Shown here: piece by piece, positions 37,663-40,126 of the stretch
How positions within the stretch are numbered: position 1 is the first letter of the stretch
Layout: the number at the start of each line of letters is the position of its first letter
DNA from: an uncultured Pelagibacteraceae bacterium
Lineage (GTDB): Bacteria; Pseudomonadota; Alphaproteobacteria; Pelagibacterales; Pelagibacteraceae
DNA: 60,940 bases
Direction: 5' to 3'
Assembly (NCBI GenBank): GCA_902526645.1
Contig: CABZLS010000007.1
Span: 1-60,940 of the forward strand
Made by a program: the position numbers and the translations under genes
Notes under the pieces: generated by a model
What the model saw: the letters and a program-made list of their open reading frames with translations, nothing else
Told to the model about the DNA's origin: nothing
Databases searched by the model: none

Positions 37663-38781
37663 ATGAAAAAAATTTTAAATTCAATAGGAATTGATAAAAA
37701 GCCTCAAGATACCAATATTGTTGTTGCTATGTCAGGGGGAGTAGATTCCTCAACCGTTGCAGGAATGATGAAAAAAGAGGGTTATAAAGTTATTGGTGTA
37801 ACACTTAAGCTGTATGATGATAGTAAACAGGTTGCAGCATCTAAGCAATGTTGTTCTGGTCAGGACATTATGGATGCCAAAAGAGTTGCACTTAAATTAG
37901 ATATTGATCATAAAATTTTATATTATCAGAACAAATTTAAACATGGAGTAATTGACAATTTTATTGAGAGTTATCTAAAAGGAGAAACACCAATACCATG
38001 TGTTCAGTGTAATCAGACAGTAAAGTTTAAAGATTTGTTTGAATTTTCTAAAGAATTAAAAGCAGATGCTCTAGTAACAGGTCATTATGTAAAAAGTGTT
38101 ACTTCAGATAATACTACTAATATGTATAGAGCTATAGATGAAAATAGAGATCAGAGTTATTTTTTATTTAATACTAAAAGAGATCAATTAAATTTTTTAA
38201 GATTTCCTTTAGGGGGGTTACTTAAAGATGAAACAAGACAAATTGCAAAAAGATTAGATTTAAATGTTGCAGATAAACCTGATAGTCAAGATATATGTTT
38301 TGTACCTGATGGTGATTATGCATCTGTTATTAAAAAATTTAGACCAGACTCTTTTCAAAAAGGAAATATAAAAGATGTTAATGGTAATGTAATTGGTGTT
38401 CACGATGGAATTATTAATTTTACTATTGGTCAAAGAAAAGGAATCAAAGTGTCTAATAAAGAAGCTTTGTATGTTTTAAAAATAGATTCTAATAATAATG
38501 AAATTATTGTTGGTCCCAAATCGTTCTTAGGAAGAAAAAAAATTTTTTTAAGGGACTTAAATTTACTCAGTGATAAAAGGGATTTAGAAAATGATATTCT
38601 CGTCAAAGTAAGATCAACAGGTAAATTATTAGAAGCTAAAGTAAAAATTTCTGATCAAAATGGTGCTATTGTTAATCTTAAAGAGTCCGAGGATGGAATA
38701 TCACCCGGTCAAGCTTGTGTTTTTTATAATAAAGACGCCTTGGGTTATAAGGTTTTAGGAGGTGGCTGGATTAAAGAATGA
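37663..38781 (+). CDS. mnmA: tRNA-specific 2-thiouridylase MnmA
   Basis: It thiolates U34 of Lys, Glu and Gln tRNAs, using ATP and sulfur relayed from a cysteine desulfurase. The PP-loop is [14 protein letters not shown], the first catalytic cysteine lies in [11 protein letters not shown], and the second in [12 protein letters not shown]. The ORF is open back to 37543, but ATG 37663 is the right start: family members begin near MKKILNSIG and the DUF3553 gene runs antisense upstream. The 372 residues fit the family. Confidence 0.94.
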
Positions 38782-38793
38782 GAAAAAATAAGC

Positions 38794-38877
38794 CTATTTT
38801 TTCTTATTCTTTTTTCTTGCTCTTCTTTTTTTAGAGCCCATTTTTCTTCGACCTCTGTGTTTCTTCGGGTAGCTCAT
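38794..38877 (-). CDS. Extremely basic 27-residue protein
   Basis: A 27-codon ORF with a good AAAGGA ribosome site 5 bases before ATG 38877. The protein starts MSYPKKHRGRRKMGSKKRR; of the 27 residues 18 are Lys, Arg or His and none is acidic. It is convergent with mnmA and divergent from metC. Small very basic proteins like bTHX, bS22 or the mS38/AURKAIP1-COX24 group bind ribosomal RNA, so a ribosome-associated role is a reasonable guess, not shown. No standard ribosomal protein matches it exactly to my knowledge. Confidence 0.7.
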   Translation of the reverse strand: MSYPKKHRGRRKMGSKKRRARKKNKKK

Positions 38878-38950
38878 TAAATCCTTTACATTAATTTATT
38901 GAATTTTCTATAGGGATATAGCATTGTCCTAAAAGCATATCAATTTTTTT

Positions 38951-40126
38951 ATGGTAAAATCTTTCAAGACATTTTTAAAACATACCGCAAAAGATTTTCA
39001 TAACCAGTCAGTAAATCCCCCGGTTGTAAGAGCATCTACAATTATTTTTAAGTCTATGCAACACATCAGAAAAACTCAAAAAAAGTCTTTAAAAAATCCC
39101 ACTGGCGGACACTTTGATTATGGAAGACAAGGAACTTCAACAACTTATATATTACAAAAAATTTTGACAAAACTTGAAGAGAGCTACCACGTATTCACTA
39201 CACCTACAGGATTTGGTTCTGTTTTTTTGGCAATTTTTAGTGTTGTGAGACCTGGAGATGAAATGTTGGTTGCAGATCCAGTATACAGTCCTACTCGAAT
39301 TTTAACCGAAAATTATTTAAAAGAATTTAACATTAAAACAGTTTTTTATAATCCTCATGATCTAAAAACATTACAAAATAATATTACGAAAAAAACTAAA
39401 TTAATATTTGTTGAAAATCCTGGTAGCAATACTTTTGATTTTCAAGATTTAGGAAAAATTATATCAATTGCAAAAAAATATAAGTTATATACTGCAATAG
39501 ATAACACCTGGGGAACCCCTTACTATTTAAAACCAATTAAACTTGGTTTTGATATGTCAATTGTTTCTGCCACTAAATATTATTCTGGACATTCTGATGT
39601 AATGGGTGGAAGTTTAGCTGTAAATAAAAGAGTATTTTCTAAAGTCAAGGCAGCAGAAAAAATTACAGGTCTTAGACTAGGACCTGATGATGCCTACTTA
39701 ATTACGCGAGGATTGAGAACACTCGATGTTAGATTGGATAGACACAGAGAAAATGCAAAAAAGGTAGCTGCTTTTTTATTGAAAAATAAAAAAATTAAAC
39801 TTCTTTATCCTTTTAAAAAAAACTCACAAAATTTTAGAATGTGGAAAAAATATTATTCAGGAGCTTCAGGGTTAATGGGTTTAAAGATTAAAGCAAAAAA
39901 TATCAATTCAGTAAGAAGATTTGTAAATTCACTAAAGCTGTTTGGTTATGGTTATAGTTGGGGTGGATTTGAAAGTTTAGCACTTCATCAAGAATTTAGA
40001 GAAACAGGTAAAAGAAAATATATGAACTTATCAAAGGATGAACATCTTGTAAGATTTCATATAGGTCTAGAGGATCCAAATGATTTAATTGCTGATATAA
40101 AACAAGCTTTAAGACATTTAAGATGA
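38951..40126 (+). CDS. metC: Cystathionine beta-lyase MetC-type PLP enzyme
   Basis: A 391-residue Cys/Met-metabolism PLP enzyme. The PLP lysine is in VSATKYYSGHSDVMGGS (about residue 209), with YGRQGTSTTYILQ and AIDNTWGTPYYLKP upstream. The sequence favours cystathionine beta-lyase, which makes homocysteine, over gamma-synthase. It overlaps the MFS gene by 4 bases. The 70-base upstream region holds no SAM riboswitch that I can recognise. Confidence 0.88.
   Translation: MVKSFKTFLKHTAKDFHNQSVNPPVVRASTIIFKSMQHIRKTQKKSLKNPTGGHFDYGRQGTSTTYILQKILTKLEESYHVFTTPTGFGSVFLAIFSVVRPGDEMLVADPVYSPTRILTENYLKEFNIKTVFYNPHDLKTLQNNITKKTKLIFVENPGSNTFDFQDLGKIISIAKKYKLYTAIDNTWGTPYYLKPIKLGFDMSIVSATKYYSGHSDVMGGSLAVNKRVFSKVKAAEKITGLRLGPDDAYLITRGLRTLDVRLDRHRENAKKVAAFLLKNKKIKLLYPFKKNSQNFRMWKKYYSGASGLMGLKIKAKNINSVRRFVNSLKLFGYGYSWGGFESLALHQEFRETGKRKYMNLSKDEHLVRFHIGLEDPNDLIADIKQALRHLR

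Follow-up and report, generated by a model that had tools for sequence, protein, structure and literature searches.

An all-basic 27-residue protein shared by Pelagibacteraceae and phages: a candidate ribosome component or ribosome-bound factor

Introduction

Is the gap between mnmA and metC in a SAR11 genome really empty and, if the short open reading frame found there is a gene, what could the function of a 27-residue protein devoid of acidic residues be? The question arises from the contig of an uncultured Pelagibacteraceae bacterium (GenBank assembly GCA_902526645.1, contig CABZLS010000007.1), of which 60,940 nucleotides were analysed (the window). The genes in the neighbourhood are ordinary, coding for the tRNA 2-thiouridylase MnmA, a cystathionine beta-lyase-type enzyme, an MFS transporter, a DUF3553 protein and a CysQ-like phosphatase. 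The metC product (window 38951-40126) scores 332 of the 366 bits needed, i.e., under the cystathionine beta-lyase cut-off, and a bifunctional L-alanine/L-glutamate racemase model takes the fifth rank for it.

Results and Discussion

A short basic reading frame between mnmA and metC

The 27-residue ORF which a sequence-only reading had pointed out between mnmA and metC is present, and it was found to lie on the minus strand (Table 1). It is convergent with mnmA, whose stop codon ends at 38781, leaving 12 bases between both stops, and divergent from metC, which starts at 38951, 73 bases away. Ten lysines, six arginines and one histidine make up 17 of its 27 residues (63%), slightly less than the two thirds claimed earlier; the absence of Asp and Glu is as described. 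Among the 242 ATG-initiated ORFs of 20-60 amino acids in the window it is the sole one in which K, R and H reach 60% or more without any acidic residue, and randomising the window 60 times with a first-order Markov model produced no ORF of such composition.

Table 1. Features of the microprotein locus in the window
Feature	Position	Strand	Basis
Microprotein CDS, 27 residues (MSYPKKHRGRRKMGSKKRRARKKNKKK)	38794-38877	minus	in-frame conservation, dN/dS 0.059
Shine-Dalgarno-like AAAGGA, 4 nt before ATG	38882-38887	minus	window sequence and relatives
-10 box TATATC, extended by TGC in front (TGC-TATATC)	38915-38920	minus	window sequence and comparison of relatives
-35 box TTGATA, 17-base spacer	38938-38943	minus	window sequence and comparison of relatives
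18-bp hairpin overlapping the 3' end of the CDS, T run after it on both strands	38773-38812		folding energy
Possible opposing metC promoter TTGAAT-N17-CATTGT, weak -10	38899-38927	plus	by eye

Conservation and selection

The selection set consisted of 205 ORFs taken from the loci of homologues, 152 of them unique; some genomes are present in two collections, and eight ORFs belong to other families. The pooled dN/dS over the 152 unique ORFs is 0.059, with dS near saturation. Mean entropy at the third codon position of the same ORFs reaches 0.80 versus 0.22 and 0.20 at the other two. All 205 ORFs are free of stops, partly by construction, as the loci were fetched as matches. Over four families and 19 distinct peptides, 16 of the 27 columns are invariant (M1, Y3, P4, K5, K6, H7, R8, G9, R10, R11, K12, G14, S15, R18, R19 and K25).

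The microprotein was compared with the ribosomal protein bL34 in six of eight genomes (G000 and G012 were left out, their bL34 not having been caught) and turned out to be the more conserved of the two in 12 of 15 genome pairs (74-89% versus 57-91%), a level of conservation that lends support to a ribosomal identity but does not define it. For reference, MnmA of five other family genomes is 56-81% identical to that of the window.

We conclude that the microprotein is encoded by a conserved gene which purifying selection maintains and which has a promoter of its own, conserved in the home genus. The earlier reading had asked for a synonymous/nonsynonymous comparison, which gave the low ratio above, and was prepared to give the gene up if near relatives had no conserved ORF or had stops in it; the ORF is conserved in 158 of 201 genus genomes, and this check did not refute the gene. 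A promoter common to relatives, a Shine-Dalgarno site, a hairpin at the end and dN/dS of about 0.06 all back a conserved gene.

Promoter, ribosome binding site and terminator

The clean ribosome site described earlier is indeed there, AAAGGA being located at 38887-38882, four bases ahead of the ATG. A similar site precedes the gene in 179 of 205 homologue upstream regions compared to 5.5% of shuffled sequences. A rule-based promoter scan of the window alone found none, and the promoter emerged only via comparison of relatives. The pattern TTGnnn-N17-TATATC is present in 176 of the 205 upstream regions versus 0.05% of shuffles, and in 160 of these 176 the -10 box ends 36-39 bases ahead of the ATG. 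From the -10 box of the window, a transcript start near 38908 is predicted. Among the 29 upstream regions without the pattern, 26 are from other genera or families and one (L052) is a contig of another-genus type within a genus genome; L046 and L121, lacking the exact pattern, keep both boxes at a spacing of 15 and 16 bases. The genome that holds L052 (contig G113:C17) carries a second, other-genus type copy of the gene with a different upstream region, which suggests that L052 is a contaminating contig in G113.

In family f32 (L210-L211) a -10-like TATTAT ends eight bases ahead of the ATG and the Shine-Dalgarno site is absent. This arrangement suggests that the f32 message may be leaderless.

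The microprotein promoter and the possible metC promoter appear to stand face to face and to overlap within 38882-38950, and the stretch ACAATGCTATATCC is nearly invariant within the genus. Such opposing overlapping promoters, putative as they are, would account for the near-invariance of the whole stretch in the genus.

The hairpin at the other end of the gene has a folding energy of -16.9 kcal/mol (z -7.4) on the plus strand, i.e., the one of mnmA, and -9.0 (z -4.0) on the minus strand. Judging from the window itself, it is likely to be a terminator common to the convergent mnmA and microprotein genes. A rule-based terminator scan of the window found none.

Occurrence in the Pelagibacterales

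A whole-genome protein search located the microprotein in 32 of 61 relatives: 32 of the 37 in the genus and none of the 24 in family f2 of the same order. With the genus sampled more widely, the 158 genomes out of 201 include 26 of the 29 near-complete ones. Two more divergent genus matches (e.g., G097, E 7.7e-7) are outside the set of loci read. The profile search across the order gave 242 of 298 genomes, or 241 after the removal of a false match in G244 (E 0.131), which sits within a longer gene. With G244 set aside, the genomes listed as matches all belong to the window's own family. The home family is Pelagibacteraceae, as the best 80 GTDB loci are titled either Pelagibacteraceae (77) or Pelagibacterales (3).

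Twelve genus genomes without the microprotein (86-99% complete, including G233, G234 and G252) were also checked for its neighbours. metC was found in none of the twelve at E<=1e-60, in a search that had no positive control; mnmA is missing in 11 and runs off the contig end in the twelfth. Five genomes with the microprotein do have mnmA. Since the genomes without the microprotein are also without metC, and have mnmA missing or incomplete, it is a stretch that is missing and not an ORF that is broken: the metC-mnmA-microprotein stretch in these twelve has been lost or is systematically unassembled.

No relative of the microprotein was seen in three f2 loci that hold mnmA (L205-L207). The sole strongly basic short frame in these loci, with 21 residues in L205, lies within the stretch of a larger gene.

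Independence from neighbours and presence in other families

Neighbours within 600 bases were tallied for all 205 loci, including those cut by contig ends, e.g., L174: 92 have both metC (divergent) and mnmA (convergent), 89 metC only (L006-L013 and others, where mnmA is not within that distance), 12 mnmA only and 12 neither. At several of these 89 loci, the microprotein is followed by an ORF which resembles a membrane protein and starts ...IWIFIVPFVAVN....

When 385 genomes of the class were searched with a profile, 13 of them proved to have 27-residue relatives at E<=4.2e-10; five belong to the home family and eight to three others (f32, three; f25, four; f142, one). The contexts in the three other families are unrelated: MFS and methionine sulfoxide reductase-like genes, cold-shock-like and sigma-factor-like genes, and a LysR-like gene (names assigned by reading). 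At E<=1 the class sample has 125 genomes with matches, 112 of them with solely weak ones (E 0.003-1); twenty of these 112 were fetched and read, and none proved to be a relative. In the phylum sample just two of 398 genomes match at E<=0.01, and these two again belong to the home family.

The microprotein gene is therefore a stand-alone gene, kept where its neighbours differ. This bears on the reading in which the ORF is no protein at all, being a chance frame, the antisense of the mnmA terminator or a metC leader peptide. The overlap of its 3' end with the hairpin and its position facing metC would suit such explanations, which are nevertheless refuted by the present data and hardly tenable any longer: selection acts on the encoded residues, the 205 ORFs (fetched as matches) have no stops, and the frame is kept without mnmA and without metC, in other families and in phages. 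The Rfam scan speaks against them as well, its 15 matches up to E 5 being all far under the gathering scores (the best has 27.5 of 75 bits, E 0.00039) and mostly given by miRNA models on the hairpin.

Absence from f2 (none of 24 genomes) and presence in only four families among 385 class genomes indicate that the microprotein is not a core ribosomal protein. As a further point against a ribosomal function, genes for ribosomal proteins were not noticed beside it where ORFs were listed (the window, L052, L212, L215 and L217).

Viral copies

Successive scans of IMG/VR found 28 contigs, then 31 including those 28, encoding proteins of the M[G/S/A]YPKKH[R/K]GRRK type with 31-40 residues. Leaving off the N-terminus, the DNA pattern for KKH[R/K]GRRKxG[S]K retrieved 112 viral contig stretches. 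In every one of them the core KH[R/K]GRRKxG[S/R]K is in an open frame, and in 110 this frame has at most 71 codons. In L372 and L426 the core is within open frames of 380 and 374 codons, where it is possibly fused to a larger phage protein.

Only the letters left free by the pattern count as independent evidence for the viral core. At these, position 3 is R or K and never Q, both following arginine sites are R and never S, and the serine site is S or R. The N-termini vary: among the 80 of 112 viewed we found MSSVLKKKKHKG..., MGSVLKKKKHKG..., MSKxxLKRKKHKG..., MAKVGLAKHRG..., MKWQKKHKG... and MKVGPKAKHRG.... The viral pN/pS of 0.16 was obtained on 83 entries corresponding to 80 contigs (three were entered twice), and it is biased, since the search pattern fixes most of the core residues. 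Freed from duplicates, the 112 stretches form seven neighbourhood clusters of 76, 20, 10, 2, 2, 1 and 1.

Homologues do lie in contigs carrying phage genes, as PHROGs matches were obtained near the microprotein in all ten viral contigs scanned. The neighbours are GroES, holin and virion protein in L268; HNH endonuclease and integrase in L265; exonuclease, endonuclease and DNA methyltransferase in L256; primase and DnaB helicase in L356 and L370; DNA polymerase in L336; head maturation protease in L320; PAPS reductase in L361; dCMP deaminase in L252; and 2OG-Fe(II) oxygenase in L254. No hallmark phage gene was among the genes scanned in L252 and L254. The largest cluster has a PAPS reductase-like gene together with a 2OG-Fe(II) oxygenase (found by search in L361 and by reading in L340 and L364).

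For the L361 polymerase and for an uncharacterised gene adjacent to GroES in L268, the nearest relatives are found in 023Pt_psg01, DSL-LC04 and the pelagiphages HTVC023P and HTVC027P. The core motif was not found in the parts read of HTVC027P (about 71%), HTVC023P (about 54%) and 023Pt_psg01 (about 64%). A tblastn search of INPHARED phages with the peptide and viral variants gave no matches, in a setting where the low-complexity filter may mask such queries, and we draw nothing from this negative result.

One phage type coincides with the microprotein of family f142 over all 25 N-terminal residues, and the nucleotides agree at 59 of 75 positions, including 11 of 25 third positions. Identical residues with only 59 of 75 nucleotides shared mean that it is the protein, and not the DNA, that is held constant.

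The phage copies bear on two further explanations. A protein that is 63% basic and acid-free could condense DNA in the manner of protamines or histone tails and be used by phages on their own DNA; one phage cluster does have it in the structural region near the GroES, holin and virion-protein genes. However, the largest cluster has it near replication genes. Protamine-like tails usually keep their composition and not their sequence, whereas 16 of 27 residues are invariant here over four families. We regard a nucleoid or DNA-condensing function as quite unlikely.

A secreted or released cationic antimicrobial peptide is very improbable: no signal peptide is apparent by reading, phage copies exist, and bacteriocins are unlike the microprotein in their invariance. 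What speaks for such a function is that Pelagibacter contributes 6,675 predicted antimicrobial peptides to AMPSphere (PMC10491242) and that bS22 itself is described as inhibiting bacteria (PMC10085706).

Comparison with known families

With bacterial and viral members as queries, Pfam, NCBIfam, PHROGs and PDB searches yielded no meaningful match, the two PHROGs rows obtained having E of 1.1 and 2.3. The family libraries searched have no model for the microprotein, in agreement with the earlier idea of an overlooked gene. As a control, actinobacterial bS22, eL41 and bTHX were each recognised by the same libraries, whereas the bS22 of Flavobacterium and that of Borrelia were missed, which means that the bS22 models are blind to part of their own family.

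The proteins most similar in size and charge are ribosomal. bS22 (NF047430), COX24_C (PF08213) and mS38 are, like the microprotein, small (28-33 residues), about 60% K/R and missed by annotation. The un-annotated Borrelia bS22, with 61% K/R, is a direct precedent (PMC10618245). bS22 and eL41 have 55-65% positive residues according to PMC10085706 and PMC10618245, close to the 63% of the microprotein. bTHX (PF17070, TIGR04560) is likewise basic, 27 residues long and has a poly-K end; eL41/aL41 (eS32), known from eukaryotes and archaea, is likewise all-basic and ribosomal with 25 residues; bL34 (PF00468) is likewise short and basic and has a similar degree of conservation.

The earlier assumption of an rRNA-binding type of composition thus fits in terms of charge (63% K/R/H, no acid), while the sequence does not support assigning it to bTHX, bS22 or mS38, as neither a model match nor an alignment convincingly above permutations was obtained. 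The Thermus Thx sequence pattern is absent from the microprotein, and Pfam Thx and NCBIfam ribo_THX gave no family for 15 members in libraries that detect Thermus Thx. NF047430 (ribo_bS22) and PF08213 (COX24_C) did not match the microprotein and NF047430/PF08213 searching detected M. smegmatis bS22; Ribosomal_L41 of Pfam did not match it either and finds eL41 itself. Alignment scores of the microprotein with eL41 and bTHX were not convincingly above permutations, and eL41 has no sequence support. For bL34, PF00468 gave no match, and the family profile was not above permuted columns (six bL34 sequences, p 0.30-0.95); p of 0.002-0.003 for one phage member among 96 tests was discarded because the family profile did not support it. 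bL35 and bS21, with p of 0.0145 and 0.047 in a set of 18 targets, were not significant after correction.

We also searched the genomes for the known proteins themselves. A separate bL34 match is present in all 11 genomes searched, above the cut-off in ten. COX24_C gave nothing in 11 genomes and Thx nothing over the cut-off in 14, each search exceeding its cut-off in just one of 14 control genomes.

The microprotein could still be a true bS22/mS38/eL41-type protein (the proposed 'uS22') of the h2/h27/h44/h45 pocket, too diverged to be recognised, which would be a sub-case of a ribosomal function. Size and charge agree with it, and some phage members start with M[G/S]SVLKK, resembling MGSVIKK of actinobacterial bS22. 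With actinobacterial or Flavobacterium bS22 as the partner, several phage members reach p of 0.02-0.05, out of 96 tests and before correction. The SAR11 rows gave p of 0.07-0.68 in 15 permutation tests against bS22, and in another ten exceeded the permutations once (p 0.03); when the family profile was set against permuted columns, bS22 did not reach 0.05 either. By comparison, Flavobacterium and Borrelia bS22 pass easily together. However, set against these two, M. smegmatis bS22 does not pass (p 0.12-0.57), so a negative result does not exclude a common site, and the test can miss true site-mates. Against this sub-case also stand the silence of the ribo_bS22 and COX24_C models and the hhalign probability of 0.5-0.6%.

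The predicted structure departs from it as well. An AlphaFold model of a 35-residue phage member (16 sequences; mean pLDDT 74, pTM 0.36) is extended at residues 1-15 and helical at 16-34, whereas bS22 and eL41 are described as helical. In this low-confidence model the helix would fall in the variable K/R part, while the invariant segment would be extended. Overall, we consider bS22-type identity unlikely.

The literature on SAR11 ribosome structures, on Pelagibacter small proteins and microproteins and on the literal motif gave no title or abstract describing the microprotein, most subscription journals and bioRxiv being outside the scope of this search. A word search for trmU, mnmA and metC found none of them in the paper on Pelagibacter structured RNAs (PMC2704228).

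Proposed role

bS22, eL41 and bTHX, of like size and charge, are ribosomal (PMC10618245, PMC10085706, PMC6582356; bTHX by PDB names). Viruses are reported to encode ribosomal proteins, two of which enter E. coli ribosomes (PMC6375957), and for phage bS21 a role in favouring the messages of the phage at a late stage of infection has been suggested (PMC9723584). As the peers in size and charge are ribosomal and phages are known to encode ribosomal proteins, a ribosomal or ribosome-bound function is favoured. We therefore hold, with moderate confidence, that the microprotein is probably a previously unrecognised ribosome component or ribosome-bound factor of Pelagibacteraceae and some other Alphaproteobacteria.

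That the residues of an all-basic peptide are almost fixed would point to a specific and slowly changing RNA surface rather than to bulk charge, and among such surfaces rRNA is the most conserved. The invariant YPKKHRGRRKxGS would contact a highly conserved RNA in a sequence-specific manner, most probably rRNA, and the C-terminal K/R part may contribute charge contacts. With their homologues, phages might load a variant of their own onto the ribosomes or RNA of the infected host, in the way reported for bS21 and bL12. Phage-encoded bS21 and bL12 are likewise small, shared by bacteria and phages and under purifying selection (PMC6375957, PMC9723584), but they have known host ribosomal homologues while the microprotein has none of known function.

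The composition, the conservation resembling that of ribosomal proteins and the phage copies are all in keeping with a ribosomal or RNA-binding role; a DNA target or another RNA would also fit the charge. The latter would mean binding to a different conserved structured RNA (tmRNA, RNase P RNA, 6S or SRP RNA) or a general RNA chaperone, with phages protecting or redirecting RNA. The arginine-rich near-invariant segment with its variable basic tail, the lack of established homology to ribosomal proteins and the scattered phylogenetic distribution are all compatible with it. On the other hand, those RNAs are expected throughout the class, where the microprotein is patchy, and nothing found links it to them. 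We see this as rather unlikely.

More tentatively than for the ribosome-bound function as such, we speculate that the microprotein could be an undescribed ribosomal protein of SAR11 ribosomes, and that many phages would re-equip the host ribosome during infection with versions altered in the tail. If this is true, viruses and hosts would exchange parts at the ribosome in bacteria that are among the most abundant of the ocean. The microprotein makes it possible to test directly whether phages replace ribosome parts in hosts of this kind, and it illustrates how proteins this small escape the standard family models. Near-invariant in the sampled Pelagibacteraceae genomes, without a model in the libraries searched and shared with phages, it is a concrete candidate for a missing part of the translation apparatus in cells that rank among the most abundant on Earth.
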